A DNA stretch of 64,000 bases, taken from positions 992,001 through 1,056,000 of the forward strand of contig NZ_ASWD01000001.1 of assembly GCF_000407485.1 (NCBI RefSeq), read 5' to 3'. Below the pieces are notes generated by a model. It ran no database searches. It was not told where the DNA came from and saw nothing but the letters and a program-made list of their open reading frames with translations. The position numbers and the translations under genes are program-made. The stretch comes from Enterococcus pallens ATCC BAA-351. GTDB lineage: Bacteria > Bacillota > Bacilli > Lactobacillales > Enterococcaceae. This document shows positions 42,452 through 59,300 of the stretch, piece by piece. Each line of letters opens with the position of its first letter. Position 1 is the stretch's first letter.

Positions 42452-43108
42452 TTAGCGTTTCTTCTTCGTCTTCTTTTTCTTCTTGGCTTCATGAAAGGCT
42501 CGGACACGGTCGATCTGAGCCTTCCTTGGATTGACCGGTTTATCCGGGACTTCGGGTTCTTCTGATTTAGCGGCGTCAAGCAGTTGTTTAGCCGAATCAT
42601 TTGGCAGCTTCTTCGCTTTTATTTCTTCAGGAACAGCTGCTGTTGGAACAGAGACTTTTGCCGGACTAGCGGCTGGAACGGTTTTCTTTACATCTGCCTC
42701 TAATTTTTCTTCTATTGAAACAGGGACGACTGGCTTTTGTTCTGCTGGTTTAACTGCTTCTACTGGTTTTACAGTCTTTTCTTCCTTCACTTCAGTAACT
42801 TCTTCAGAGACTTGGGGTACTGCTTCGGTAATAAATTGTGGTGCGAACACGTTGTTAGGATCTGCTACATAAGCTTGTGGGTCTGGTTTTGATAAATCGA
42901 ACAATGGTGTTTCAATGGTTTCGACGAATTTAGCAGAAACCACCTTTTGGAATTGCTTCACATTGTCTTTCTCAAATAATTTTAGGGTAGTTAAGGTTTC
43001 TAAGGATGTACGAATTTCCTCAGGTGTTAGATTTGGGTTGGGTTCATTGTAGGACCAAGGATGTCTTTTCCCCAGTTCATCTTCAAATGACGCTTTTAGT
43101 TTTAACAT
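42452..43108 (-). CDS. DUF2922 protein with long Pro/Lys/Glu-rich tail
   Basis: A 218-residue protein. The N-terminal ~70 residues are DUF2922-like (WSYNEPNPNLTPEEIRTSL, FVETIETPLFDL). A disordered Val/Pro/Glu/Lys-rich tail follows and ends in the very basic AKKKKKTKKKR. The tail is unusual for the family, which is normally ~75 residues. AGGAGAG precedes the ATG. Last gene of a leftward block starting with DUF1659. It is a paralogue of the short DUF2922 gene at 43584. Function unknown; the basic tail could bind nucleic acid or anionic polymers (inference). Confidence 0.7.
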   Translation of the reverse strand: MLKLKASFEDELGKRHPWSYNEPNPNLTPEEIRTSLETLTTLKLFEKDNVKQFQKVVSAKFVETIETPLFDLSKPDPQAYVADPNNVFAPQFITEAVPQVSEEVTEVKEEKTVKPVEAVKPAEQKPVVPVSIEEKLEADVKKTVPAASPAKVSVPTAAVPEEIKAKKLPNDSAKQLLDAAKSEEPEVPDKPVNPRKAQIDRVRAFHEAKKKKKTKKKR

Positions 43109-43135
43109 ACATATCTCTCCTCGTTTTTATTTTAT

Positions 43136-43519
43136 TCAGGAGCTTTCCGCTGCAGTCGGAACGGCTCCAAGGGTAATGGCTTCAGTAACTTCAACTAATT
43201 CAGTGGCAACAGGTTCAGTGGGGAAACACCGAGCAGACAGCTTTTTCCACTCATCTTGGGTGAAATAGTCCGCAAAGAAAAAGAAATAGCGGCGAAGGGC
43301 TCGGTTAATCGTGGCCTTGGCAAACAAATGCCGTACCAATTCTTTCATGAATAAATTAAAGCTCGTATCCCCTAGCTGATAACGGACTTTTGCGGCTAAT
43401 AATACTTGAATCGTTGTCCCGCTGTCTTGTGTTTGTTGATAAAACGTTAGAATCGCTTCCTCCAATCTTTCTTTTTTTGAATGAAACAGCTGATGAGGGG
43501 TAAAGGGCTGCTCTGACAT
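43136..43519 (-). CDS. Hypothetical protein between the two DUF2922 genes
   Basis: A 127-residue cytosolic protein, not recognised. It looks helical (FLHSKKERLEEAILTFYQQT-like start; LFMKELVRHLFAKATINRAL; YFFFFADYFTQDEWKKLSAR) with a low-complexity acidic C-terminus. Size and helix content would fit a small sigma-factor-like or regulatory protein, but no signature supports this. A strong ribosome site (AAGGAGG, 6 bases before the ATG). Part of the DUF1659-DUF2922 block. Confidence 0.6.
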   Translation of the reverse strand: MSEQPFTPHQLFHSKKERLEEAILTFYQQTQDSGTTIQVLLAAKVRYQLGDTSFNLFMKELVRHLFAKATINRALRRYFFFFADYFTQDEWKKLSARCFPTEPVATELVEVTEAITLGAVPTAAESS

Positions 43520-43535
43520 CGATTTTCCTCCTTAA

Positions 43536-43571
43536 GCTCCCGCAGGACTCAGACTGCGGGGGCTATTTTTT
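43536..43571. terminator. Hairpin inside the DUF2922 block
   Basis: AGCTCCCGCAG / CTGCGGGGGCT hairpin. The T-run (ATTTTTTTG) follows it on the plus strand, i.e. against the direction of the flanking genes. On the minus strand it lacks T's and may instead stabilise or process the mRNA. Confidence 0.55.
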
Positions 43572-43583
43572 TGATTTTAGTGA

Positions 43584-43802
43584 CTAAAAAATAGTTGTTT
43601 CTTGGGTGGTGATAAATTCAGCGCTTTGCAACGCCGCAAACTGACGAATGCCATGCTTTTGAAATAGGTTCAGCTGGGTCAATCTTGCCAGCGTTGCTTT
43701 GATTTCTTCCGGTGTCTTATCGGTGTTGGGTGACTCATAACTCCACACTTGATTTTTTCCATTTTCTGTTTGGAAGACAGCGACTAATTTTGTTGTGGGC
43801 AT
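43584..43802 (-). CDS. DUF2922 family protein
   Basis: A 72-residue protein starting MPTTKLVAVFQTENGKNQVW, with TPEEIKATLARLTQLNLFQ and ending AEFITTQETTIF: the family size and pattern. ATG 43802 has AAGGAGGAG 5-6 bases upstream. DUF1659 and DUF2922 genes are commonly adjacent in Firmicutes. Their functions are not established. Confidence 0.85.
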   Translation of the reverse strand: MPTTKLVAVFQTENGKNQVWSYESPNTDKTPEEIKATLARLTQLNLFQKHGIRQFAALQSAEFITTQETTIF

Positions 43803-43815
43803 AGGCTCCTCCTTT

Positions 43816-44022
43816 TTAATGGGTAACACGAGTTTGATTGGTGACAATCACACTATCCAATGAGCTGCCATCAGGTGCCAGATCCGCCATCACTTCGCCT
43901 AAAGCTAAGATGTCGGCTTCCGCTGGATTATTGACGATATTGCTGAAATTCACTTTCTTTTGTTTGTCTTCGCCAGCTTGTTCAATTTGGACTTGCAATT
44001 TGGTTCCTAAAAGTTGGATCAT
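43816..44022 (-). CDS. DUF1659 family protein
   Basis: A 68-residue protein: LGTKLQVQIEQAGEDKQKKV, NIVNNPAEADILALGEVMAD, VIVTNQTRVTH. This matches DUF1659, usually encoded just before DUF2922. A strong ribosome site (AGGAGG) lies before ATG 44022. It heads the leftward block; a promoter match is at 44169-44197. Confidence 0.85.
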   Translation of the reverse strand: MIQLLGTKLQVQIEQAGEDKQKKVNFSNIVNNPAEADILALGEVMADLAPDGSSLDSVIVTNQTRVTH

Positions 44023-44449: not shown

Positions 44450-45202
44450 CTAAAAATGATAAAACGATTGTGTTTCCTCAAGATATTGAGTAGTCCAGCG
44501 CTGCGAATACTGATGATAGTAAATACCAGATTCGAAAGGAAACTGTTGCAGCACTTTCTGCTTACTTAGCTGAAGGCCAAACGGGGTGTCTGGCACCTGT
44601 ACATAGTCTAGAGGGGTTCCGTAACGAGAGCGTTTGGTTGGCCAAGGCAGATCCCGTTCCGAGCAGGCAAAAGCTAAGGCAGCATTGGCCGCATATTTCA
44701 GAATGGTTTTCTCGCGGATGGTGACACTTGTCCCTGGACCGGTGGCCATTTTGATGTAGGTTCGGCCGGACTCCTCCCAAACCTCATCAATAGATAAAGG
44801 ATTGATCCAAATAGTATGCTCAATGGTCGTTAAAGGAAAGAGCACATACAGCGCATTGACCATCGGATGTAAACGAGTTTGAAAAACGTTTAAATGTTGG
44901 TGTAAATAATTAAATACCTGACTGGTAAGAGGGTAATCATAGAAGGTTAAGGCTTCTTCCTTTCGACGTAAGGTTGTTAACGTCTTAAACGGAGAATGAT
45001 AGCACTGATCATCATCATAAAAGGTGAGGGTCTCATTTCTACCAGGAACAGGCAGGACGAGATGAGTCTGCATAATATCCAACGCAGGATAGGCAGGCTG
45101 GGCACGACGTAATTCACGTTCCCAGGCAGGGGACCATTCCTGATAATTCATAAAAATATCGCTTTCATTTTTTCTTAATTCTTCAAATTCAACAGTTGAC
45201 AT
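44450..45202 (-). CDS. ComK-like competence transcription factor
   Basis: A 250-residue protein. The central part matches ComK: LHPMVNALYVLFPLTTIEHT and IWINPLSIDEV, then GTSVTIREKTILKYAANAAL. A non-conserved N-terminal ~60 residues and a C-terminal tail of ~70 make it longer than Bacillus ComK (~190). ComK proteins bind A4-N5-T4 boxes and, in bacilli, switch on DNA uptake genes. Enterococci are not known to be naturally competent, so here it may instead govern local genes. GTG/ATG choice: ATG 45202, with GGAGTG upstream. Its leader extends toward the invertible segment. Confidence 0.75.
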   Translation of the reverse strand: MSTVEFEELRKNESDIFMNYQEWSPAWERELRRAQPAYPALDIMQTHLVLPVPGRNETLTFYDDDQCYHSPFKTLTTLRRKEEALTFYDYPLTSQVFNYLHQHLNVFQTRLHPMVNALYVLFPLTTIEHTIWINPLSIDEVWEESGRTYIKMATGPGTSVTIREKTILKYAANAALAFACSERDLPWPTKRSRYGTPLDYVQVPDTPFGLQLSKQKVLQQFPFESGIYYHQYSQRWTTQYLEETQSFYHF

Positions 45203-45305: not shown

Positions 45306-45486
45306 TACAAATAAATAAAGAACATGAGGTTGTAATAGTTGTAAACTGAAAAATTCACAAACTATTTTTTGTCATTCCTAATGAAAAATGCATTTTGATT
45401 ATAATTAAATGAGAAAAATTTAAGGTAAATAGGCTATTTTAAGGTGAAGTAGTTATAAAAATGTATTGAATCCGAGGTGAATATGT

Positions 45487-45507
45487 CTTAGTCTTAACAA
45501 GACTAAG
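45487..45507 (+). repeat. Left inversion site
   Basis: CTTAGTCTT-AAC-AAGACTAAG: 9-bp arms around an asymmetric 3-base centre. The central 17 bases equal the reverse complement of the right site. Paired arms around a short asymmetric centre are what tyrosine recombinases bind. Confidence 0.75.
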
Positions 45508-45562
45508 AGGTGCTGGAAAATCAAAACGAAATAAGTTGTAATAATTACTCTTGGCTAGATTA

Positions 45563-45591
45563 ATTATAGAATATACATCTAAAATACGCAA
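45563..45591 (-). promoter_or_regulatory. Outward-facing promoter inside the invertible segment
   Basis: On the minus strand TTGCGT-17 bases-TATAAT (perfect -10). It points left, across the left inversion site toward comK (leader ~350 bases). After inversion it would point right into the DUF1149-adhesin operon (leader ~220 bases). Promoter activity is inferred from sequence only. Confidence 0.6.
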
Positions 45592-45725
45592 TATCTTTTA
45601 AAAAATTAATTAATATGGGTCGTTTTGTTTATTCTTAGAAAGAAACTAAATAAAGAATGGCGTTATAATAGGGTTCTCTATGTACCGTCAAAAATTCCGT
45701 CATTCTATAGAAAGGAAAAATAATA

Positions 45726-46835
45726 ATGCGTAGAGGAGAAAACATTTATTGGAGGAAGGACAAGCGCTGGGAAGGAAGATATTGTGTTGGAAAAAAACCG
45801 AACGGCAGACCAAAATACCGTTCCGTGTACGGGAAATCCCTTCAGGAAGTCCGCCAGAAATTATACCCGCTGAAATTAAAGTATCAATTAATTAAAGAAA
45901 CGCAGGGAGATGTGTGTCTCTTATTAGAAGATTGGGGCCAACAATGGCTAAATGAGGCCATGGAAAATGTGAAGCAATCAACCTATGCCAATTATCATCA
46001 CAAGCTAACTCATTATGTCTTACCTGTTATTGGAAAATACGCATTAAATGAGCTAGATGAAGAAGTTGGTTTGAAACTGTTAGCGTCATTAAAACAACGG
46101 GAGTTGAAACCTTCAACGATCCAAGTCATTTTCCGAATTTTGAATCAATGTATTCACCAAGCAGTCAGTAAGAAGCTTTTAAAAGCCAATCCATTTACGA
46201 CCATTAAATTGCCTAAAGTGGTGAAAAACAAGCATCAGGCATTGACGAAAAAAGAACAAAAATCGTTAGAGCAGGTGGCTTTAACAGAAAAAACCAGCAA
46301 AGGGTTACCTATTTTATTGGCTCTTCATGCTGGCTTAAGAATTGGAGAAACCTCCGCGTTAGCTTGGCGGGATATCGACTTTGATACCAATACCATTCAT
46401 GTTCATTCGACCTTTCAACGGGTGTTTTCTGTGTTTGATCAGGACAGTAAAACGGAACTTATTCACACCAGCTCTAAAACAGAAGCTTCTGCTCGGTTTA
46501 TTCCAATGAGCAATCTGTTGCGAGAAGTATTACTTAAGCATAAAGCAGATTCAACAGGAGAGTTTGTTTTTTCTACTAAAGAAAACCCGTCAGAGCCGCG
46601 TTTGTTAACTTATCATTTTCATAAACTGCGGGTAAAAGCCAAGCTGGAACACATCCATTTCCACCAGCTCCGCCATACATTTGCGACTCGCTGTATTGAA
46701 AGCAAAGGAGACATTAAAAGTGTTAGCCAGCTCATGGGCCACAGTTCGGCAAAGCTAACTTTAGACACCTATACCGATTCCATGTTGGAGCAGCGGATTA
46801 AAGTCGTTCAACAGATGGAACGAGCCATCAGCTAA
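45726..46835 (+). CDS. Tyrosine recombinase (phage-integrase family)
   Basis: A 369-residue recombinase. An N-terminal arm-binding-like region (~1-50, WEGRYCVGKKPNGRPKYRSV) is followed by a SAM-like core-binding domain (~65-155) and a catalytic domain with Arg in GLRIGE (~203), HFHQLRHTFATR (His-x-x-Arg, ~310), the GHSS His (~338) and nucleophile Tyr in LDTYTDS (~347). All catalytic residues are present. AAAGGA lies ~8 bases before the ATG. No excisionase, relaxase or phage genes are nearby, so it is not part of a larger element. It is flanked by inverted sites and so probably acts as an invertase. Confidence 0.92.
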   Translation: MRRGENIYWRKDKRWEGRYCVGKKPNGRPKYRSVYGKSLQEVRQKLYPLKLKYQLIKETQGDVCLLLEDWGQQWLNEAMENVKQSTYANYHHKLTHYVLPVIGKYALNELDEEVGLKLLASLKQRELKPSTIQVIFRILNQCIHQAVSKKLLKANPFTTIKLPKVVKNKHQALTKKEQKSLEQVALTEKTSKGLPILLALHAGLRIGETSALAWRDIDFDTNTIHVHSTFQRVFSVFDQDSKTELIHTSSKTEASARFIPMSNLLREVLLKHKADSTGEFVFSTKENPSEPRLLTYHFHKLRVKAKLEHIHFHQLRHTFATRCIESKGDIKSVSQLMGHSSAKLTLDTYTDSMLEQRIKVVQQMERAIS

Positions 46836-47059
46836 TAAAAATACTTACAAAAAGTAAGCTTTGAGGACTTATAGGGCAGGCTTATTTTGCCATTTTTAAG
46901 AAAGCGCTTACTATATTGATTTAAATAACTTCTTTCTTGGAATACTTACACTTAAGGCTTTTACTCCTCAAATGTCTCTTGAAAATAGCAATTATAGCGA
47001 CTTTGTTTTTCTCATTATTTATTAATTTTTCTTCGTTTTTTTATTCACAAACTTTTTAA

Positions 47060-47096
47060 ACCGTCAAAGACCGTCAGTTGGCGGTTTTTTGTTGGT
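47060..47096 (+). terminator. Terminator after the recombinase, inside the invertible segment
   Basis: AACCGTC pairs with GGCGGTT and is followed by TTTTTTG. The loop contains the repeated CCGTCA hexamers. It would stop recombinase transcription from reaching the downstream operon in the present orientation. Confidence 0.65.
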
Positions 47097-47117
47097 TTCA
47101 TTGAGTTTTCCAATAGT

Positions 47118-47144
47118 TTTCATAGTCTTGTTAAGACTATGAAA
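47118..47144 (-). repeat. Right inversion site
   Basis: TTTCATAGTCTT-GTT-AAGACTATGAAA: 12-bp arms with the asymmetric centre GTT, the complement of AAC in the left site. It has the opposite orientation to the left site, as needed for inversion rather than excision. Between here and 47297 there is a small hairpin (GCTCTT/AAGAGC, ~47187) and only a weak promoter-like match (TTGAAT-18-TAAATT). Confidence 0.75.
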
Positions 47145-47296
47145 AAATATCAATTATAAAGTGATGAAAGGTGACGTTGCTTCAGCGCTCTTACTAAGAG
47201 CAGGTGGTTTTTCATCAGGTATTGTTAGCATAATAATTTGAATTTCAGTTAAATGATTAACTAAATTAACGAATAATAAAGCCAGGAGGACAGGCA

Positions 47297-47710
47297 ATGG
47301 ACGTTCACAGACGACAACCAGTAGTAGAAGCTTTTCATTACGATCGAGTACAGGAAGAGGCAAAAGAACAACTACTTAACTTAAGCGTTCTTCCTTTAGA
47401 AACAGAGCATCCAGAATCCTTGGAACGCCAAACAAGCACGATTGGAACTAGATTAGATTTCTCATTAACGGTTAATAAATTTAGGGTTTCTGGTGTCATA
47501 ACCCAAATTATTCACATCAAGCAGAAACGTGTAGAAGCTCAAGAAGATCTGACTGAGGCTGAACTTGCGGAATTAGCCACCCCCTTATTAGCACTTGTAC
47601 AGCGATTAACCTACGAAGTCAGTGAAATTTCCTTGAATGAACCTGGGACTTCTTTAGACTTTACTCAAATCAGCAAGCCACATGTAACTACAGATACATT
47701 AACTATATAG
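47297..47710 (+). CDS. DUF1149 (SecB-like) family protein
   Basis: A 137-residue cytosolic protein of the DUF1149 type: N-terminal VVEAFHYDRVQ, central TRLDFSLTVNKFRVSGVITQ and the signature ELATPLLALVQRLTYEVSEI near residue 110. The family shares the SecB export-chaperone fold. As first gene of an operon that ends in very large secreted adhesins, it may keep those precursors unfolded before export (inference). AGGAGGA lies ~6 bases before the ATG. It is the first gene beyond the right inversion site. Confidence 0.85.
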   Translation: MDVHRRQPVVEAFHYDRVQEEAKEQLLNLSVLPLETEHPESLERQTSTIGTRLDFSLTVNKFRVSGVITQIIHIKQKRVEAQEDLTEAELAELATPLLALVQRLTYEVSEISLNEPGTSLDFTQISKPHVTTDTLTI

Positions 47711-47781
47711 AAATAAAGCATGTTGTTCAAGCGCGCAGGTTCATTCGCAAGATGACTGAAAAATGATGGGAGAGAAATGAC

Positions 47782-49419
47782 TTGATAAGAAACCAAAGAT
47801 ATCAGCAAATTTGGGAAAAAGAAATCTTTCGTTCACGGAGTAAACACCCGAAATTGAAGAAAGGCATCATCGGAACTACGACACTGTTGGGCTCTGCATC
47901 TATTGCCCTAAATAGTACTTCTATTATAACGCACGCAGCAGAGGAAACCGTGGTGACTGAAAACAAAGCAGATACATCGAAGACAACAACTACTTGTGTC
48001 GCTACCTTTGAATCTACAATGCCAGTTGGAACACAGGTAGCTGCTTCTCCGCAAAAAGAATTAACTGAAAAAGTGGAGACAAATGCAGTAGAAACAGCAG
48101 ATACAAATACGGAAGAAGCAGAACCAGTAGTACCCGGTACAACGGAACAAGAAAATCCAACATCGAATCTTGGAGACGATGAAGAAACTCCTACTCCTGA
48201 TGATAAAGATGAAGGAGAGCAGCCGATGCCTATTCCTAAACCAGAGGAAGAAAAGCCAGCTCCAATACCAGAACCAGAAAAACCAAAGCCTGAGCAACCA
48301 AAACCAGAACCGGAAGCTCCAAAGCCAGAAAAACCAGCTGAATCGGAAAAAGAGACTACAAAAGCTGAACCAGAATTTGAAGTGATTTACGTGCAACAGC
48401 CGGTTGAACAACCGGTACAAGAACCAGAACCTGAACCGATTGTTGTTCACTCACCCGAAAATGTTGTCCCGGTTGGCCCCCAACAGACGACAGTGAGTCA
48501 TGGTTCTATCAAGTTTGATCGGAATCTAACAACGTCGGAGTTCATTGAAGAAATCGGGGAAGCCGCAAGAGAAGTCGGACAGGAACATGACTTGTATGCC
48601 TCAGTCATGATTGCTCAGGCCATTCTAGAATCCGGTTCTGGGGGCAGTCAATTGGCACAAGCGCCGAATTACAATTTATTCGGTATTAAGGGTGAACACG
48701 AAGGTAAGAGTGTCAGCTTTGCGACTCAAGAAGACACGGGCGGCGGTAATATGACTACCATTCAAGCCAGCTTCAGAGCCTATGACGATTATGAGGACTG
48801 TTTTGAGGATTATGCCAAGCTATTGAAAGAAGGGATTTCAGGTAACTCTGATTTTTATAAGGGTGCTTGGAAGACTACAACAGAGAATTATGAAGAGGCC
48901 ACAGCCTTCTTAACTGGCAAGTATGCAACAGACACTTCTTACAACAAGAAACTGAATGGGCTAATTGAAACCTACAATTTAACCCAATACGATCATCCGA
49001 AAGAAGAGGGGACAGCAACTAATCAAGTAGCTTCATCTGGTTATTTGCTTCCCTTAAATGATTTCATTGTCTCCAGTTCTTTTGGGATGCGGGGCAGTGA
49101 ATTCCATCGTGGGATTGACTTAGCAGCGGGTGAAGGGATGCCTATCTTTGCCAGTAAGAGCGGAACGGTCTTAATCGCAGAATACCATTATTCTTGGGGA
49201 AATTATGTCGTAATCCAACATGACAATGGTGAAGCAACCTTGTATGCGCACCAACGCAACTTTGCAGTCAATGCAGGCGAACGAGTGGAGCAAGGACAAA
49301 TGATCGGCTTTGTTGGTTCAACCGGGAATAGTACCGGCAGCCATTTGCACTTTGAAGTGTGCTTAGATTCAACCTTAGCAGTGGAACGACTGGTTGATCC
49401 AGCAACAGTATTGTTTTAG
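47782..49419 (+). CDS. Secreted bifunctional wall hydrolase: glucosaminidase + M23 endopeptidase
   Basis: A 545-residue protein with TTG start and GGGAGAG upstream. The signal region (~25-52, ending THAAEE) is followed by a disordered Thr/Glu/Pro-rich wall-spanning stretch (~55-225, with EKPKPEQPKPEPEAPKPEKP-type runs). A glucosaminidase domain (~245-410) has MIAQAILESGSGGSQLAQ with the catalytic Glu. The C-terminal M23 peptidase (~425-545) has FHRGIDLAAG and GSHLHFEV, which carry the zinc ligands. It should cut both glycan and peptide bonds of the wall. Within this operon a role in opening the wall for giant adhesins is plausible (inference). Confidence 0.9.
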   Translation: MIRNQRYQQIWEKEIFRSRSKHPKLKKGIIGTTTLLGSASIALNSTSIITHAAEETVVTENKADTSKTTTTCVATFESTMPVGTQVAASPQKELTEKVETNAVETADTNTEEAEPVVPGTTEQENPTSNLGDDEETPTPDDKDEGEQPMPIPKPEEEKPAPIPEPEKPKPEQPKPEPEAPKPEKPAESEKETTKAEPEFEVIYVQQPVEQPVQEPEPEPIVVHSPENVVPVGPQQTTVSHGSIKFDRNLTTSEFIEEIGEAAREVGQEHDLYASVMIAQAILESGSGGSQLAQAPNYNLFGIKGEHEGKSVSFATQEDTGGGNMTTIQASFRAYDDYEDCFEDYAKLLKEGISGNSDFYKGAWKTTTENYEEATAFLTGKYATDTSYNKKLNGLIETYNLTQYDHPKEEGTATNQVASSGYLLPLNDFIVSSSFGMRGSEFHRGIDLAAGEGMPIFASKSGTVLIAEYHYSWGNYVVIQHDNGEATLYAHQRNFAVNAGERVEQGQMIGFVGSTGNSTGSHLHFEVCLDSTLAVERLVDPATVLF

Positions 49420-49429
49420 GAGGAGTTCA

Positions 49430-50248
49430 ATGAAATTTGATTCAGACAAGATTAAGAAAACCACGTTTCCTGTAGCATCCTTTTCCGGTTATCGGAAATA
49501 TGATGTCGACGATTTCCTGCACTATGTAGCGAAGGATTATCGGCGTTTCGAGCAGGACAAGGAAGACCTGCAAGAAGACATCGAAATGATTGCCGCTCAA
49601 CAAAAGAAGCAAGAGGACGAGTTCAGCAAGGAACGTTCTCGTTATGTGATTGAGCTGCATGAACAAAAGAAGCGGATGGAGGAATTAGAAGGGCGCTTAA
49701 AACAATTAATTTGTGAAAGGGAACAAGAGGCTACCAACAAGCAGACCAGCACTACCTTCCAAGAAGCCATTTTGATTTCACAAGAAACGGCCTTAGAAAT
49801 TGAGCGAAGTGCCGAAAGAGAAGGTGCCAAGATCATTGAAGAGGCCCATGTCGAACGGGGCCGAATTATTAAAGAGGCGAAGGAAGAAAAGCAGACCATT
49901 TTAAACGAAGCCGAAGAGAAGCGTCACGTCATCGAGCAGCGGGCCGATCAACTCTTAACAGAAGCAGAGCAACGGAAACAAGAAGTAGAAGCCCATTGCC
50001 AACAAGAACTGATGAAGCTGGAACAAGAGAAAGAAGCGATGCTGCAGCAGGCCAAGCACGAATTAAATCTCTTAGCTGAAGAAATGGCACAGACTAAACA
50101 GGAAATTGAAGCTGCTAAACGGGAAGAAATCAATTTCCGTGACACGTTAATTTACGATTACAAAGCCGCCTTAGCTAAGCTCAACGACGTAAAATGGCAA
50201 AACTGGGAACGCGCATTTGAAGACCAGCTGCATCAAATCCAAGCATAG
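49430..50248 (+). CDS. DivIVA-domain coiled-coil protein (paralogue 1)
   Basis: A 272-residue cytosolic protein. The N-terminus DKIKKTTFPVASFSGYRKYD followed by VDDFL is the DivIVA/GpsB lipid-binding motif (F-x-x-x-x-R/G-Y-x-x-x-D-V-D-x-F-L). Residues ~35-255 are a nearly continuous coiled coil rich in Glu, Lys and Gln. DivIVA proteins mark curved membrane at septa and poles. ATG 49430 is chosen because GGAGGAG is upstream and the longer frame begins inside the previous gene. Its presence in an adhesin operon suggests spatial control of secretion or wall hydrolysis (inference). Confidence 0.82.
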   Translation: MKFDSDKIKKTTFPVASFSGYRKYDVDDFLHYVAKDYRRFEQDKEDLQEDIEMIAAQQKKQEDEFSKERSRYVIELHEQKKRMEELEGRLKQLICEREQEATNKQTSTTFQEAILISQETALEIERSAEREGAKIIEEAHVERGRIIKEAKEEKQTILNEAEEKRHVIEQRADQLLTEAEQRKQEVEAHCQQELMKLEQEKEAMLQQAKHELNLLAEEMAQTKQEIEAAKREEINFRDTLIYDYKAALAKLNDVKWQNWERAFEDQLHQIQA

Positions 50249-50262
50249 AGAGGAAGAAATCA

Positions 50263-51102
50263 ATGAATTTTGAAGCAGTCGAGCTGCGTAAGCTCACCTT
50301 TAAGAGGAATGCCCTAGGTGGTTTTCGGCAAACGGATGTTAATGATTTTTTGCGGAATGTTGCCGATGATTATGAAACCTATGATGAACGAGTCCGACGA
50401 TTGATTGAGGATAAGGAACGGATGGAAACAGAGCTAGCAGCAAAAGAAGCTGGTCATCAACGAAGAACCATACAATTAGAAAATGAAATTAATGAACTTC
50501 TGCAGACAATTAAAAATCTGGAAGTCGAACTCAATCAATTAAGAACCCAAAAAGCCGAGTGGGATCAATTTGAACAGCAGCATTTAGACTATCGGGACAT
50601 TGCAAAAATGAAACGCATTGCTCAACAAACCTTGGAAGCAGCTGAGAAAGCCGCCAATAAATTATTGGAAGAAGCGGAACAAAAGAAAGCCGCCATTGTT
50701 GCAGCAGCTGAGCATCACAAGCAGTCTTTATTAACAGAAGCAGAAAAACAAAAGCAAGCATTAATGAATCAAGCAGAAGAAGAACGGCTGCAAAACCTTT
50801 TCAATAGTAAATTGGAAATCAGCACCTTGCAGAGAGAACAGGACGAACGAGCTGTCGAATTAGATGCACGACAACAGCTGTTAGAAGGCAAACAGCGGGA
50901 GTTACAGCAGCTGAGAGCAGACATTCATGAGGAAGTTAAAACCTTCGCTGGGATGATGACAGCGACCAGACAAGAAATCAGCCAAGAATATACTCACAGC
51001 ATTGAGGCCCTGACGAAGAAAAACGAAGCGGTACGAAAGGAAACCACTATTCAACAACAACCAGTCATTCATGTGCTGGAACCGGAAAAAGAGGTTATGT
51101 AA
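50263..51102 (+). CDS. DivIVA-domain coiled-coil protein (paralogue 2)
   Basis: A 279-residue paralogue of the preceding gene. N-terminus ELRKLTFKRNALGGFRQTDV followed by NDFLRNVADDYE, then a long coiled coil with Ala/Glu/Gln-rich heptads (…AAEKAANKLLEEAEQKKAAI…). The two proteins could form mixed coils. GAGGAAG lies ~8 bases before the ATG; 14 bases separate it from the previous gene. The cell's housekeeping DivIVA, encoded near the division genes, is presumably elsewhere. Confidence 0.82.
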   Translation: MNFEAVELRKLTFKRNALGGFRQTDVNDFLRNVADDYETYDERVRRLIEDKERMETELAAKEAGHQRRTIQLENEINELLQTIKNLEVELNQLRTQKAEWDQFEQQHLDYRDIAKMKRIAQQTLEAAEKAANKLLEEAEQKKAAIVAAAEHHKQSLLTEAEKQKQALMNQAEEERLQNLFNSKLEISTLQREQDERAVELDARQQLLEGKQRELQQLRADIHEEVKTFAGMMTATRQEISQEYTHSIEALTKKNEAVRKETTIQQQPVIHVLEPEKEVM

Positions 51103-51276
51103 GTGAAGAAAGAGGAGCCGCAGCTGACATCCATCTATGATCCTTTCGTGCTGCGTTATCTCACGCTGGTGAATAAATTCAATCACAAGGTTGTATTTCT
51201 CTATGACTTCAAGGAATACAAGACCCTCAAGGAGATCCTGTTGTTGGCGGATCGAGTGAAGGAGCTGAGGCGATGA
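51103..51276 (+). CDS. Small hypothetical protein in the adhesin operon
   Basis: A 57-codon frame that starts with GTG directly after the previous stop (AGAGGT 7 bases upstream) and ends in TGA overlapping the next ATG (ATGATGATG). The peptide is charged (VKKEEPQLTSIYDPFVLRYL, …FLYDFKEYKTLKEILLLADR…) with no membrane segment or signal. Tight packing on both sides supports it being real. Not recognised; possibly a small cytosolic adaptor for its membrane neighbour. Confidence 0.6.
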   Translation: MKKEEPQLTSIYDPFVLRYLTLVNKFNHKVVFLYDFKEYKTLKEILLLADRVKELRR

Positions 51277-51587
51277 TGATGCAAGTGATTCAAACTGCAT
51301 GGCTTTCCTCTATTAGTGTAGCAGCAGGTGCTGGTGGATTCAACTTTAGACGAATCCTTATCTCCCTCACCTTTACCATGATGGCAGTTCGTTATCTGCA
51401 AAATCGATGGAAGCATCGACAAATCACAGAAGAGGAAGAGATTCGGAAGATTGAAGCAACCTACGAAAAGGATGAGAATGGTTTTTACCCATGGGAAGTA
51501 GATACGGATGACAGCCCAAATCGGGTAACCCCAGAGAGTAAACCAATGGTGAATAGCTGGGGACCGAAACGCGGTCGTTGGCGATAA
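51273..51587 (+). CDS. Small single-helix membrane protein in the adhesin operon
   Basis: A 104-residue protein. One hydrophobic segment lies near the N-terminus (~8-42, SSISVAAGAGGFNF then RRILISLTFTMMAVRYL). A charged cytosolic stretch follows (EEEEIRKIEATYEKDENGFY) and a basic C-terminus (GPKRGRWR). Overlaps the preceding small gene by 4 bases. Not recognised. It could link the DivIVA-like proteins to the membrane (inference). Confidence 0.6.
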   Translation: MMMQVIQTAWLSSISVAAGAGGFNFRRILISLTFTMMAVRYLQNRWKHRQITEEEEIRKIEATYEKDENGFYPWEVDTDDSPNRVTPESKPMVNSWGPKRGRWR

Positions 51588-51627
51588 ACAACGGCAAGAA
51601 GATTGTTGGAGAAGGGAACGTTTTTGA

Positions 51628-53277
51628 GTGGAGCAACAAGTAACGAAGCTGGAACGATTAGTCAAACAAGTGCCGATTGAGACAAATGAACGACACCTAT
51701 TCTTATCTGTTTCCAAGGGCAATGAGCGAGCCAAGGTAAAAAATATCCGAACAGCAAACTTAGAGGGGTGTATCGATTGGTTAAAAAAAGAACTAGCAAA
51801 AGCCGATAGTAAGAAGCAGTACATTCGAGTAGACGTAGTCAAAACCATTGAAGAATGTAGCTATCTAGAATTAATGCGAAAGTTTTCCGTTGTTACGCGG
51901 AATAATTATTTTCGCAGAGGGATTGCTTTTGACAAGAAGTTCAACACAGCTTTTCTAGCAGAAGAATTGATGGGCAATGCACTAATTAAGCCTTCAGCCA
52001 ATCACAAGGTAGGGTTCAATTCGCCAGAATTGTCTTTTGATCAGAAAAATATCGACAGCTACATGAAGAAAAAATACGGACAAACACTAAAGAACAAAAT
52101 TCCCCAACGCAAATTCTATGTGTTTGATACCCAAGGGTATTACCTGGAAGAAGGCAATTGGTTAACCTTATCTACTCAACCTGATCAAGCAGGGATGCGT
52201 ACCGTGGACTACAAGACATTGCCACCATCCATTGATTACACAATTGAACAGGGTGCCGCTTTTCTTCAACGACAAATACAGGATTCTGGGCAGTTCATTT
52301 ACGGATACTATCCAACCTATGATTACCAGCTGACCGGCTACAATTCTGTGCGCCATTTTTCTAGTTTGTATGCCTTATTGGAAGCGCAGGAGTACTTGAA
52401 GCAAATGGAAGAATTGAAGGCTTCAGAACAAGGCTTGGATTGGGGATTATCCAATCTCACCATTCAGACAGACGATGCGTTGTATATCAAAGAAAAGGCT
52501 GCATCAGGAATTTCGGTCAAGCTGGGTGCGCAAGCCTTAGCCGTTTTAGCATTAGCGAAGTTTCAATTGATTACTGGGAATACCAAGTATGAAACAGCGA
52601 TTAATCAATTGATTTTAGGCATGGAACGCCACTTTGTCGATGAAAAAGGTGAGACTACCCACATCTTAGATGAAAACCTTGAGACTAAGAAGAAGTTCAA
52701 CATCATTTACTACGATGGAGAAGCTGTTTTCAGTATTTTGCGAGGCTATGCCATCACGAAAAATCCGCAGCATCTGGCATTAGCAAAAAAATTATTCGAT
52801 CGCTTTGTAGCCAAAAACTATGAACGATACCACGATCACTGGTTGAGCTACGCCACCAATGAGATTTTGTTGTACCTAAAAGAACAAAAATACTACGAGT
52901 TTGGTTTAAAGAATGCCTTTGAGAATTTAAATTTTATCGAGCATCGCGATACCGCCTATCCAACGCTGTTGGAATTACTAATGGCAGCCATCAAAATGAC
53001 GGATCAGTTGAAAGCATCCGATGACTATAAAAAGGGCAAGTTTACTCAATTTGTCTCAAAAACTGATTTCTGGCGCTTACAACAAGTGGCCATCAAACGA
53101 GCCGTAATCGAAATTGAAAAAGGGGTCATGCATCCTGAAATGGCGATGTTTATGAAACGGCCAGATAAAATCGTCAATGGCTTCTACACCAGACACGACA
53201 AATTCCGGATGCGGATTGATGATCAGGAACATTTCCTAAGCGGACTGATCAATTTCTATACCTATTTCTATAAATAA
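51628..53277 (+). CDS. Protein with C-terminal alpha-helical barrel (six-hairpin glycosidase-like), unknown function
   Basis: A 549-residue protein without signal peptide, so cytosolic. The N-terminal ~190 residues (TANLEGCIDWLKKELAKADS; LMRKFSVVTRNNYFRRGIAF) are unfamiliar. Residues ~200-549 show repeated helical hairpins with Tyr/His/Asp-rich turns (QDSGQFIYGYYPTYDYQ; YYDGEAVFSILRGYAITKNP; YHDHWLSYATNEILLYL), as in (alpha/alpha)6-barrel enzymes. GTG start, AAGGGAA ~9 bases upstream. Immediately before the SD-repeat adhesins, it might modify them or their glycans (inference). Adhesin SD stalks are glycosylated by unrelated enzymes in staphylococci. Confidence 0.5.
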   Translation: MEQQVTKLERLVKQVPIETNERHLFLSVSKGNERAKVKNIRTANLEGCIDWLKKELAKADSKKQYIRVDVVKTIEECSYLELMRKFSVVTRNNYFRRGIAFDKKFNTAFLAEELMGNALIKPSANHKVGFNSPELSFDQKNIDSYMKKKYGQTLKNKIPQRKFYVFDTQGYYLEEGNWLTLSTQPDQAGMRTVDYKTLPPSIDYTIEQGAAFLQRQIQDSGQFIYGYYPTYDYQLTGYNSVRHFSSLYALLEAQEYLKQMEELKASEQGLDWGLSNLTIQTDDALYIKEKAASGISVKLGAQALAVLALAKFQLITGNTKYETAINQLILGMERHFVDEKGETTHILDENLETKKKFNIIYYDGEAVFSILRGYAITKNPQHLALAKKLFDRFVAKNYERYHDHWLSYATNEILLYLKEQKYYEFGLKNAFENLNFIEHRDTAYPTLLELLMAAIKMTDQLKASDDYKKGKFTQFVSKTDFWRLQQVAIKRAVIEIEKGVMHPEMAMFMKRPDKIVNGFYTRHDKFRMRIDDQEHFLSGLINFYTYFYK

Positions 53278-53327: not shown

Positions 53328-56300
53328 ATGAGTAAGAGAAGGAAAATGGTTTATCGGCATGAGCCAATCAAGAAATACCGGATGCACAAGGTGAAAAAGA
53401 ATTGGGTAGTTAAAGGCGGCGTTGCTGGGGCAATGTTGGTCAGTACGGTTGCAGTTCCGGCAAGTAATATGGTTGCTCATGCGACAGAGAATGAGGTAGC
53501 AGATGCCACGACTGGTGAAGAGATAGATACTATTGCCAGTAGTGATCCAGTGGAGGAAGTTGCGCCGCAGGGAGGAGAAGTTGCTGCATTAGGAACGGAT
53601 GTCTCGCAACGACCACAGCTACAGGCGTCGGATAATCCAGAGGGTACGAAAACGTGGACTGCAAATGTTGACGATGAAGTAACCGTTTCGAATATACAAA
53701 GAATTAAGCAAAATGGTAGTCCTGCTGCATCAGCGTATACAATTGAAAAATATGATGCTGGAATTTCATTTGTAATTGATATTGATAATAGTCAGGGTGT
53801 TTTCAGTATTGGAGATAAAATTATTGTACCAATTACTGGAAATGGTACAGAAAATAATGGTTTACCTGTATTTAATCAACTTGCTGGTACTTTATCAGGG
53901 GTCGGTAATATTCGTTACGTTTCGGATAATGTGGGATTCGAACTCGTTATAACAGAAAATTTTACTAATAAAATTAGAGGAAATATGATAATGAGTGGGA
54001 CAACGTGGGATTTTCCTAAGTTTTACAATGAAGTCACGGGGAAACTTGAATGCCATTCTATAGATATTTTTTTCCTAGATCAAAAAATAGAAACAATAAC
54101 AACTACTTTTTCTAAAACAGCAACAGCCGCATCTAAAAGGAACTTGCTTTCTGGTACAGCGGCACGAGCGGATACAGTTAGATCCATACATGCTTATAAC
54201 AATTGGGAAAAGCTAGCAAGTATAGTGAAAGGTTTAGAACCACTACCTGAGAAGGATTCATTAATTCAAATATCACGAGCAACTATAGAATCAAATTCCC
54301 CTATTTCCAGTTATGTTGGGGATGATAAGCAAGACAAAAATAATGAGAACTGGTTTATGCTAGCAGTACCTTCTCCTGATGGTTCAGGTAATCTTTTCAC
54401 TTCTGTTGGAGTCAATAGTGGCTATGTATTACGTTACATCGATGTACCACAGGACGCGACTAACGAACAAATAACAGAAGCTCTGGAATTAGCAGGTCCA
54501 AATTCCTATACATCAACTAAAAATTCTGACGGAACATTTACTTTCGCAAGTAATACAGGGACAGGGAAAAATGGTGTTAAATTAGTCGATACGAATCAGT
54601 ATAAAAATAGTGGAGCTACTACACCTGTTGAATATATTGAACAAAGAACTGGTTTAGTATATGAAGATGCAGAATTAATTAAAAAAATTAATGATGTCTA
54701 TAGTAGTCAAACTTTAGCATACAATAACGAATTTTATATCTTTTTTGAAGATAGTTCTGTTTCTCATAAGATTACAACAGAATATACTGATTCTGAAGGA
54801 AATAGTTTTTCTAGATCTTCAACTTCCACTCCAAATGCGGTTACTATTGAGGAAAACTCCACCTTGAATATTAACTATCTTGAATCCGGAACTAATCGAG
54901 TGGTTCAAGCAGCAACTCAATTATCAGGTTTTAAAGATGAAACAGCAACAATATCTCCAGAAGATATTGATTTAACCACACTTGGTTACGATTTAGATTT
55001 AACTAATTTACCAGAAGGAGCAAGCACAACAGATGGTTCATTAACGTATATATTCCCAGAAGCGGGTACACCTAAGGAAATAACGTATTACTACACACCT
55101 CGGGAATATAAAACAGAAGTAAAATACTTATTTGACCCAGACGGAACTAGGACTAACATGACAGAGATCATTCCTAGTCAAAAACTATCTGGAACGACTG
55201 GTCAAGAAGAATACATCTTTTCAGAAGATTACCGCGATAAAGAATATGTCTTAGTTGAGCAACCGGACATGACTGTTACTTTTGGTCCAGATACAAAAGA
55301 ATCCTATAATTTCATTTATCAGAAAGTCGGTAAACTAAGCTACGACACAACAGCCTATAAAGGACCAGCCAAAGATTTAACCCAAATGACCATCAATAGT
55401 GGGTCTTATACAATTAATGATGATTTAGAAACTGTAGAAAATATCAAACTAGTCGGCATACCAGATGGTTATCACTTAGAAGATGGGGATAAAACTTCTT
55501 ATCATAATAATAGTGAGTTTAGTCCAGCAAATCCGGTAGAAAATACAACCCTCACGCTGGTACCAAACTTAGCAACTGTAAAGCACACATATGTAGATGA
55601 TCAAGGAAAAGCATTGGAAGGAATCTCTACGATTGTAGACCCAAGTCTTGTAGGAAATGATATTGAAGACAAAGCGCAAGTAGTAACGGGCTATTATCTA
55701 ACAGATAAAACCGTTACAGGGCATGAGTCAAGCGATACAAGTGGTTTAGGGAAAGTTGGCGCAACAGGTCAAGTAGAAGTCAAATATACCTATAAAGAAA
55801 TGGGCAGTTATGTCTTTATAAATGAGGATGGTACAACTCCACCAGAGTCCATTAAATATGAGAACCATCCAACAGATCCTACACAAAAGAATCCAAATCA
55901 AGTGATTCCATATTTAGGAGAAGGGTATACAGCAGTCGATAGTGAAGGAACACCGTTGGAATGGGAGGACCCTGAAGATGAGACAAAAGGTTATAAAGCA
56001 CCAAAAGTAACCTCGTTAGATGAAGACACTGAAATTAAGTACCAATTAAACGATGATGAAAGCGATTCGGATTCTGATAGTGACTCAGACTCGGATAGCG
56101 ATTCAGATTCTGATAGTGATTCAGACTCGGACAGCGATTCAGATTCAGACAGTGATTCGGACTCAGACAGTGACTCAGATTCAGACAGTGATTCGGACTC
56201 GGATAGCGATTCAGATTCCGATAGCGACTCAGATTCGGACAGTGATTCAGATTCCGATAGTGACTCAGACTCGGATAGCGATTCAGACTCAGATAGTGAT

Positions 56301-59300
56301 TCAGATTCTGATAGTGACTCGGACTCAGACAGCGACTCAGATTCAGACAGTGATTCGGATTCCGATAGTGATTCAGACTCAGACAGTGACTCAGATTCAG
56401 ACAGTGATTCAGATTCCGATAGTGACTCAGACTCAGACAGCGATTCAGACTCAGATTCGGACAGTGATTCAGATTCCGATAGTGACTCAGACTCCGATAG
56501 CGACTCAGATTCAGACAGTGATTCGGACTCAGACAGCGATTCAGATTCCGATAGTGACTCGGATTCAGACAGCGACAGTGACTCAGATTCTGATAGTGAT
56601 TCAGATTCGGACAGCGATTCGGACTCCGATAGTGACTCGGATTCAGACAGCGACAGTGACTCAGATTCTGATAGTGATTCAGATTCGGACTCGGATAGCG
56701 ATTCAGATTCCGATAGTGATTCGGATTCGGATAGCGACTCAGATTCGGACAGCGATTCGGATTCCGATAGTGACTCAGATTCGGACAGCGATTCGGACTC
56801 TGATAGTGACTCAGATTCGGACAGCGATTCAGATTCCGATAGTGACTCAGATTCAGACAGCGATTCAGATTCCGATAGTGACTCGGATTCAGACAGTGAT
56901 TCAGACTCAGACAGTGACTCAGATTCAGACAGTGATTCGGACTCAGACAGCGATTCAGATTCCGATAGTGACTCAGATTCAGACAGCGATTCAGATTCTG
57001 ATAGTGACTCAGATTCAGACAGCGATTCAGATTCCGATAGCGATTCGGACTCAGACAGTGACTCAGATTCTGATAGTGATTCGGACTCAGACAGCGATTC
57101 AGATTCCGATAGCGATTCGGACTCAGACAGTGACTCAGATTCTGATAGTGATTCAGACTCGGACAGTGACTCGGATTCTGATAGTGATTCGGACTCAGAC
57201 AGCGATTCAGATTCCGATAGTGATTCGGATTCGGACAGCGATTCGGACTCGGATAGCGACTCAGATTCAGACAGTGATTCGGACTCGGATAGCGATTCAG
57301 ATTCCGATAGTGACTCAGACTCGGATAGCGACTCAGATTCGGACAGCGATTCAGATTCTGATAGCGATTCGGACTCGGATAGCGACTCAGATTCTGATAG
57401 TGATTCAGATTCAGATTCAGATTCCGATAGCGATTCAGACTCAGACAGTGACTCAGACTCGGACAGTGATTCGGACTCAGACAGCGATTCAGATTCCGAT
57501 AGTGACTCAGATTCAGACAGCGATTCAGATTCTGATAGCGACTCGGACTCCGATAGTGATTCAGATTCAGACAGCGACTCAGACTCGGATAGTGACTCAG
57601 ACTCGGATAGCGACTCAGATTCAGACAGTGACTCAGACTCGGATAGCGACTCAGATTCAGACAGTGATTCAGACTCAGACAGTGACTCAGATTCCGATAG
57701 CGATTCGGACTCGGATAGCGACTCGGACTCCGATAGTGATTCAGATTCAGACAGCGATTCGGACTCGGATAGTGACTCAGACTCGGACAGCGATTCAGAT
57801 TCAGACAGTGATTCAGACTCAGACAGTGACTCAGATTCCGATAGCGATTCGGACTCGGATAGCGACTCGGATTCCGATAGTGATTCAGATTCCGATAGCG
57901 ATTCGGACTCGGATAGCGACTCAGATTCTGATAGTGACTCAGACTCGGATAGCGACTCAGATTCTGATAGCGATTCAGACTCAGACAGTGACTCAGACTC
58001 GGACAGCGATTCGGACTCAGACAGCGATTCAGATTCCGATAGTGACTCAGATTCCGATAGCGACTCGGACTCCGATAGTGATTCAGATTCAGACAGCGAC
58101 TCAGATTCAGACAGTGATTCGGACTCAGACAGCGACTCAGATTCAGACAGTGATTCAGACTCAGACAGTGACTCAGACTCGGATAGCGATTCAGATTCAG
58201 ACAGTGATTCAGACTCAGACAGTGACTCAGATTCCGATAGCGATTCGGACTCGGATAGCGATTCGGACTCCGATAGTGATTCAGATTCAGACAGCGATTC
58301 AGATTCCGATAGTGATTCGGACTCAGACAGCGACAGTGATTCAGACTCCGATAGTGACTCAGACTCGGACAGTGATTCGGACTCAGACAGCGATTCAGAT
58401 TCCGATAGTGACTCAGATTCAGACAGTGATTCGGACTCAGACAGCGATTCAGATTCCGATAGTGACTCAGATTCAGACAGCGATTCAGATTCCGATAGTG
58501 ACTCAGATTCCGACAGCGATTCAGATTCTGATAGCGACTCGGACTCCGATAGTGATTCAGATTCAGACAGCGACTCAGACTCGGATAGTGACTCAGACTC
58601 GGATAGCGACTCAGATTCCGACAGTGATTCAGACTCAGACAGTGATTCGGACTCAGACTCGGATAGCGATTCAGATTCAGACAGTGATTCAGACTCAGAC
58701 AGTGACTCAGATTCCGATAGTGATTCAGATTCGGACTCGGATAGCGACTCGGACTCCGATAGTGATTCAGATTCCGACAGCGATTCAGATTCCGATAGTG
58801 ACTCAGATTCCGATAGTGATTCAGATTCGGACAGCGACTCAGATTCAGACAGTGATTCGGACTCAGACAGCGACTCAGATTCCGATAGTGATTCAGATTC
58901 GGACAGTGATTCAGATTCCGATAGCGATTCAGACTCGGATAGTGATTCAGATTCTGATAGTGATTCAGACTCAGACTCCGATAGTGACTCAGACTCGGAC
59001 AGTGATTCAGACTCAGACAGCGATTCGGATTCCGACAGTGATTCAGACTCAGACAGTGACTCAGATTCTGATAGTGATTCGGATTCAGACAGTGACTCAG
59101 ATTCTGATAGTGATTCAGACTCCGACAGTGACTCAGATTCCGACAGTGATTCGGACTCGGATAGTGACTCAGATTCCGACAGTGATTCGGACTCGGATAG
59201 TGATTCAGACTCTGATAGTGATTCAGACTCGGACAGTGATTCAGATTCGGACAGTGATTCAGATTCCGATAGTGACTCAGATTCGGACAGCGATTCGGAC

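Follow-up and report, generated by a model that had tools for sequence, protein, structure and literature searches.

What does a recombinase gene do when it is enclosed by two inverted repeats and stands beside a large block of surface genes? This question is raised by a locus of Enterococcus pallens ATCC BAA-351, which lies in a stretch of 64,000 nucleotides (contig NZ_ASWD01000001.1, positions 992,001 to 1,056,000; the whole stretch is called the window hereafter and all unqualified coordinates are those of the window). The locus consists of a tyrosine recombinase gene, the two repeats and divergent gene blocks on both sides. The answer put forward here, and regarded as highly probable, is a self-contained phase-variation cassette, that is, a segment whose promoter is inverted by the recombinase that the segment itself encodes. 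That such a self-encoded promoter segment inverts has strong support from comparison of sequences among related loci, and flipping within a population is predicted.

In the proposed mechanism, the recombinase would act on the two inverted palindromic sites bounding its own gene, by which a segment of 1.65 kb would be inverted. The segment would bear an outward promoter at the 5' end of the recombinase gene and, in some loci including the window, a terminator-like hairpin at the 3' end. The common orientation, which is that of the window, would aim the promoter left and away from the surface operon: the operon would be OFF, and a left block, at loci that have one, may be ON. Inversion would aim the promoter into the operon and so turn it ON.

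Inverted sites and the recombinase

The cassette of the window has the following features:

45486..45508, no strand: left (5') recombination site, a palindrome with 10-nucleotide (nt) arms and the core TTAACAA at 45494-45500
45563..45591, minus strand: promoter-like sequence TTGCGT-17-TATAAT, pointing left out of the cassette; it would face the right operon if flipped
45685..45701, plus strand: tandem CCGTC pair 5' of the recombinase, candidate arm-type binding sites
45726..46835, plus strand: tyrosine recombinase of 369 amino acids (aa) with N-, core-binding and catalytic domains
47059..47090, plus strand: terminator-like hairpin and T-run facing the right operon, -9.1 kcal/mol
47061..47075, plus strand: tandem CCGTC pair 3' of the recombinase, oriented as the 5' pair
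47117..47145, no strand: right (3') recombination site, a palindrome with 13-nt arms and the inverted core TTGTTAA at 47128-47134

The sequence TAGTCTTAACAAGACTA at 45489-45505 and its exact reverse complement at 47123-47139, from which the initial annotation of this DNA started, are both present at these positions, and the open reading frame (ORF) between them is intact and is the only one of at least 80 aa there. A third exact copy was not found anywhere in the genome, and versions with two mismatches occur in three other places, each adjoining a paralogous recombinase. The 17-bp sequence is the common portion of the two longer palindromes at 45486-45508 (arms 10, centre 3) and 47117-47145 (arms 13, centre 3). 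Of the site structure first described, the inverted arms stand and the size and centre have to be revised, the site being one of about 25 bp with a 7-nt core (TTAACAA) instead of one of 17 bp with a 3-base centre.

The comparison covered a first set of 120 family loci and a second set of 40 loci; an outgroup locus (L051, 28% identity) was kept in the recombinase tree but does not enter the first-set counts of sites, promoters and orientations. In the first set, 107 of the 120 loci were scored (6 partial genes and 7 loci with short flanks were dropped), and the match between the upstream flank and the reverse complement of the downstream flank reached at least 16 in 88 of them, as against 9 of 600 cross-locus pairings. 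Direct-repeat scores of at least 16 were obtained at 2 of the 107 loci versus 3 of the 600 pairings, with equal medians (10). Because a flank-matching search favours matching cores, the sites were located again blind to the core, with a weight matrix restricted to the arm positions, for which one half of the loci served as training set and the other half as test set. Among the 101 of 120 loci in this test, both sites were found in 99 and the inverted 7-nt cores were identical in 97 (the exceptions by core were L098 and L104, and two further loci were without both arms); cores read directly were identical in 0 of 99, and those of cross-locus pairs in 34 of 2000. The two tests rule out chance palindromes and supersede an earlier scan for palindromes with perfect arms of at least 9, which missed many sites. 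Inversion rather than excision is what inverted cores predict, and relatives that keep the recombinase also retain the sites (97 of the 101 loci).

The cores are conserved within a locus and vary between loci. Within-locus mismatches occupy 8 of 693 core positions as compared with 314 of 1782 arm positions, and in the window genome all 26 cassettes (26/26) have identical inverted cores, among which 24 are distinct. There are 61 close pairs of loci (recombinases at least 80% identical), 60 of them with internally matched cores; pairs share loci and hence are not independent. In 45 of the 60 the cores differ and in 15 they are the same, therefore both core copies changed together in the former, as in L107 and L109, where this concerted change is seen although the recombinases are 98.9% identical. 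Tyrosine recombinases need core identity for strand exchange, and the matched cores fit this requirement, so the core would serve as an address; with matching cores required and a private core at most loci, a cassette would be expected to act chiefly on its own sites. As a separate observation, the same-core pairs of the window genome, L028 with L037 and L029 with L030, could in principle recombine mutually and rearrange the genome.

The window enzyme is, judged from its sequence, a tyrosine recombinase of the lambda/Tn1549 type and is presumably active. It matches the Pfam family Phage_integrase (PF00589, 4.2e-25), and R205, K251, H313, R316, H339 and Y349, which correspond to the R-K-H-R-H-Y catalytic set of tyrosine recombinases, are invariant in 18 of 18 aligned members. 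A structure model (15-row alignment; predicted local distance difference test score, pLDDT, 86.1; predicted template modelling score, pTM, 0.68) has an N-terminal domain of three strands plus a helix, and its top PDB matches are the Tn1549 integrase (6en2, template modelling (TM) score 0.67 by query and 0.78 by target) and lambda integrase. No serine recombinase domain was found, all matches at E<=0.001 being tyrosine recombinase/integrase families. In addition, at least one CCGTC, in one orientation, occurs 5' of the gene in 99/107 loci (shuffled 3), 3' of it in 96/107 (shuffled 7) and on both sides in 89/107; these repeats are candidate arm-type sites. At L179 (NZ_CP104393 500269-501365, E. 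raffinosus HG-5) the recombinase is frame-broken with both sites and the promoter-like sequence retained, and this is possibly a naturally locked switch.

Direction of the promoter-like sequence and natural inversions

On the 5' side of the recombinase there is a strongly conserved non-coding block, which reads TTGCGT-17-TATAAT on the strand pointing away from the gene. The form TTG-17-TAnnAT was found outward on the 5' side in 94 of the 107 loci and in 9 of 107 after shuffling, and in the remaining three combinations of strand and side in 1 to 4 of 107 (toward the gene, 4); the shuffles used for promoters, CCGTC, terminators and leaders preserve base composition only. Of the 96 loci with enough flank, 84 have this form inside the cassette (shuffled 3). 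In the 250 nt beyond the cassette it is absent from the operon side at every locus (shuffled 8) and present on the left side at 2 (shuffled 5). A terminator-like hairpin (E<=-5) is present at the 3' end in 40/107 loci, the window included, and in 4/107 shuffled ones. The direction of the promoter, the lack of a similar one on the operon side and the partial terminator evidence point to the flipped state as ON and the common state as OFF. The motif GTATAG[AT] was considered as a general operon promoter and rejected, since it occurs in 21 of 33 type B leaders (shuffled 1) and the other four large types together have it in one flank out of 71; no -35 was noticed by eye, and it was set aside as a type B leader element. 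The longer form GTATAGA(T/G)...CAAA is conserved in type B leaders about 16-39 nt past the 3' site (L028-L030, L032-L037, L057-L059, L066, L067, L069-L075) and is a possible leader RNA element.

The initial annotation suggested a comparison of orientation among relatives, and both orientations do occur at related loci, so that this comparison, like that of the sites, does not refute the inversion switch. In the first set an operon that could be assigned to a type lies on the 3' side of the recombinase at 111 loci and on the 5' side at one (L043), 8 of 120 being untyped, and in the second set the sides are 33 to 1 with 6 of 40 untyped. L043, which lies on contig C9 of the window genome (G000), aligns with its paralogue L042 on opposite strands for cassette and operon (84% and 86%), and the same opposition of strands is seen against L080 of a relative (87% and 96%); the strand switch falls inside a 25-bp overlap at the site. 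In another species, the cassette of L263 is reversed with respect to L254 and L240 while both flanks are collinear, with a gap from the site to the left-flank alignment of about 0.84 kb in L263 versus about 0.26 kb in L254. The relic L185 has a broken recombinase and a left block on its 3' side. For the window locus itself, the only comparable copies are L052 and L053, both in one genome (G013), which have the same orientation to the operon and whose contigs end before the left site. Contig ends inside cassettes were not taken as evidence of mixed orientation, since repeats account for them just as well. L153 and L154 of two E. raffinosus megaplasmids differ from L152 by an IS (insertion sequence)-like insertion of about 1.5 kb left of the site (at about 6.1-7.7 kb), with a 7-bp overlap.

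Several observations weigh against a working promoter switch of this kind. The putative ON orientation is found in just 2 of the 146 operon-typed cassettes, the other 144 having the common one, and no orientation difference was found at the loci in common among five E. raffinosus megaplasmids; flipping could therefore be rare. In the second genus the promoter form varies more between loci (22/38 of the second set, shuffled 5), and the hairpin, detected at the 3' end in only the 40 loci given above, also occurs at the 5' end in 21/107. Furthermore, two cores of the window genome are not private, one being common to L028 and L037 and another to L029 and L030, and the candidate arm-type sites suggest that an accessory protein might be needed. 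The OFF-like majority in assemblies would fit surface structures that are mostly silent in culture, or alternatively it could mean that flipping is rare.

Neighbouring genes, distribution and competing explanations

The gene blocks on both sides of the window cassette are as follows:

42452..43847, minus strand: remaining left block, with a 218-aa protein, a 127-aa protein and a DUF2922 protein
44450..45202, minus strand: left divergent gene, 250 aa, without a Pfam match; its family is, tentatively, weakly ComK-like
47297..53277, plus strand: right block, the candidate target operon, with DUF1149, a glucosaminidase/M23 hydrolase, a DivIVA-domain protein and further proteins
53328..61091, plus strand: 2587-aa protein, largely Ser-Asp repeats, with an LPSTG sorting motif at its end; end of the right block

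The right block also includes a neighbour that resembles the DivIVA-domain protein by appearance, and 104-aa and 549-aa proteins without a Pfam match. The Ser-Asp-repeat ORF that closes it is, by its composition and sorting motif, a giant cell-wall protein. The initial reading of a self-inverting module between two divergent blocks is thus borne out in its layout, the segment encoding its own recombinase with divergent blocks on both sides.

The operons beside the cassettes were grouped into types by outward comparison of the 3'-side flanks, and the five large types were named from the Pfam matches of one representative each:

signal peptidase/glucosaminidase/DivIVA-like: 33 loci
WxL: 27 loci
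pilin-type SpaA: 20 loci
regulator plus SecA/SecY: 15 loci
DUF1149 plus glucosaminidase/M23, the type of the window: 9 loci
three small groups: 3, 2 and 2 loci

As typed from these representatives, the neighbouring operons are surface systems (WxL, pilin, accessory Sec and glucosaminidase/LPXTG). In an annotated E. raffinosus record, the right flank of the signal peptidase/glucosaminidase type continues into a cell wall protein and then a BsaA-family SipW-dependent biofilm matrix protein; in the annotated records examined the recombinase genes are labelled just 'site-specific integrase'. The recombinase tree follows the operon type, with 25 changes against a shuffled mean of 67.0 (110 rows; 5 recombinase rows with stops at inferred gene boundaries were left out, and near-copies add to the clustering), so that cassette and operon appear to travel together. 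Left flanks are heterogeneous except for homologous left blocks at 36 of the 120 loci, the window included. A second left-block gene at one locus (L045:4324-5055) matches ComK (PF06338, 23.9 bits, cut-off 22.3), hinting that left blocks may encode regulators. ComK as the identity of the whole left protein family was not upheld and stays tentative, 2 of 34 members matching at E<=0.01 in an alignment from which L082 and L131 of the 36 loci were left out.

The window genome (5.44 Mb, 13 contigs) encodes 26 recombinases of this family at E<=1e-60, and 12 of the 20 genomes of the genus that were searched, the window genome counted, carry 2 to 27; the closest named relative is Enterococcus sp. 665A (85-86% identity). 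Among 72,556 plasmid records, 9 have matches at E<=1e-40. Six of these are megaplasmids (54-63%), five from E. raffinosus and one from E. gilvus; of the other three records, one is from E. faecalis (46%) and two are from other genera (about 33%). All matches in phage records were below 60% identity, about 26-33% among the matches listed. At the level of the order, matches at E<=1e-30 come from 20 of 295 genomes, and twelve of the 20 belong to a second genus of the same family. Inverted pairs were found at 38 of the 40 second-set loci, and direct-repeat scores of at least 16 at 5 of 40. Among 29 loci of the order-level search, one of them from the window genome itself and many recurring in the second set, inverted pairs of at least 16 were found in 26 and direct ones in 3; outside the family of the window 6 of 7 loci have such inverted pairs, all these counts standing without a cross-locus null of their own. 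To judge from these searches, cassettes built in this way are also present in other Enterococcus-type genomes and in a small number of genomes elsewhere in the Lactobacillales.

Four other explanations have to be considered. The first is a two-way toggle that alternates the left block, with its DUF2922 and weakly ComK-like genes, with the right surface operon; it is compatible with the cassette model and differs in the purpose of the common state, in which the promoter-like sequence would serve the left block. The homologous left blocks at 36 left flanks, which this sequence faces in the common orientation, and the small number of such promoters in the 250 nt to the left of the cassette (2/96) speak for it. 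It is nevertheless considered possible rather than probable, since most of the 120 cassettes are without this left block, whereas 112 have a typed operon. The second keeps the inverting cassette and reverses its polarity, so that the common orientation would be ON by read-through from the recombinase gene and inversion would turn the operon OFF. It draws on the position of the recombinase upstream of and co-directional with the operon in 144 of the 146 typed loci, and on the detection of the hairpin in just 40/107; the sole conserved promoter-like sequence, however, faces the other way (94/107, against 4/107 toward the gene), and the window and some type A and B cassettes have a terminator-like hairpin before the operon. 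This polarity is thus unlikely.

Less likely still is the third explanation, that inversions were rare past events and the palindromes are now just operators or terminators of the recombinase gene. It would account for the strong orientation bias (2/146) and for the A/T runs that flank the palindromes, but the catalytic residues are intact, and the concerted core change in close paralogues is difficult to account for unless recombination occurs or selection keeps the cores matched. The fourth, a minimal mobile element or a decayed integrase of a prophage or an integrative and conjugative element (ICE) with terminal repeats and spread by transposition, is very improbable: the resemblance of the recombinase to Tn1549 and phage integrases, the 26 copies in one genome and the phage origin thought possible for an xerC-type gene in an E. 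raffinosus accessory-Sec region (excerpt of PMC10323788) would suit it, yet the cores are inverted and not direct, the cassettes hold one orientation and spacing relative to the surface operons, the tree tracks operon type as expected if whole loci duplicate, and no second ORF of at least 80 aa lies between the window sites. Excision through direct repeats, by such an element or otherwise, was rejected on the direct core identity of 0/99.

Known inversion systems and surface states

Returning to the self-inverting cassette, it resembles Hin and Gin in having the recombinase gene inside the invertible segment and, at one end, a putative promoter that would serve an adjacent operon. Whereas Hin belongs to the serine recombinases and works with an enhancer, the window enzyme is of the lambda/Tn1549 tyrosine type, and 26 cassettes with mostly private cores coexist. 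That recombinases occasionally lie within the invertible segment is stated, with Hin cited, in an excerpt of PMC5903667. The invertons of Bacteroides and Clostridioides difficile (Mpi, Tsr, RecV; RecV and Mpi are also treated in PMC5903667) have inverted repeats that flank a promoter upstream of surface genes, as proposed for the present cassettes. In those systems one recombinase serves several remote switches, while here each switch contains its own. According to an excerpt of PMC11892184, the median number of invertons per genome was 0 among the Bacillus-like Firmicutes of a defined gut community. FimB, FimE and similar tyrosine invertases of uropathogenic Escherichia coli (UPEC) are like the window enzyme in type and, as proposed here, in promoter inversion and in having an adhesin as target. 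Their genes lie beside, not inside, the invertible element, in contrast to the window recombinase, which sits between its sites. The integrases of the Tn1549/Tn916 family and of lambda have the same three-domain fold and share the candidate arm-type repeats. Attachment sites in Tn916 and Tn1549 are in direct orientation and give excision, and the element bears conjugation and excisionase genes. The window cassette, unlike these, has inverted core sites, a fixed place beside surface operons and no transfer or excision genes among its ORFs of at least 80 aa.

The xerC-type gene mentioned above belongs, in the excerpt of PMC10323788, to an E. raffinosus megaplasmid region with accessory-Sec genes that is absent from strain Er676. 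The accessory-Sec locus of the present set (L178-L181) is found in four of five E. raffinosus megaplasmids and not in that of Er676, and because of the same absence it is probably the same locus, as far as the excerpt describes it. For an adhesin of Lactiplantibacillus plantarum, promoter inversion was described and the authors suggest that RecT might be involved (excerpt of PMC8493755). Cassettes of the present kind are described nowhere among the open-access matches listed, which comprise titles and abstract starts, subscription papers and preprints being largely outside their scope.

In the window genome there appear to be 26 self-contained switches, placed next to WxL, pilin, accessory-Sec and other surface loci, and this arrangement suggests that each surface structure is switched on or off independently by its own cassette. 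If the cassettes flip, large-genome enterococci bear an unusually dense phase-variation repertoire, and the rule of private cores would account for the presence of dozens of similar recombinases together in an unscrambled chromosome. A more far-reaching proposal, for and against which the case seems evenly balanced, is that of a distributed surface-state memory, in which about 26 self-encoding switches, insulated mainly by 7-bp core addresses and not by recombinase specificity, would independently set the surface operons. If this is true, one genome would have a combinatorially large number of heritable surface states.
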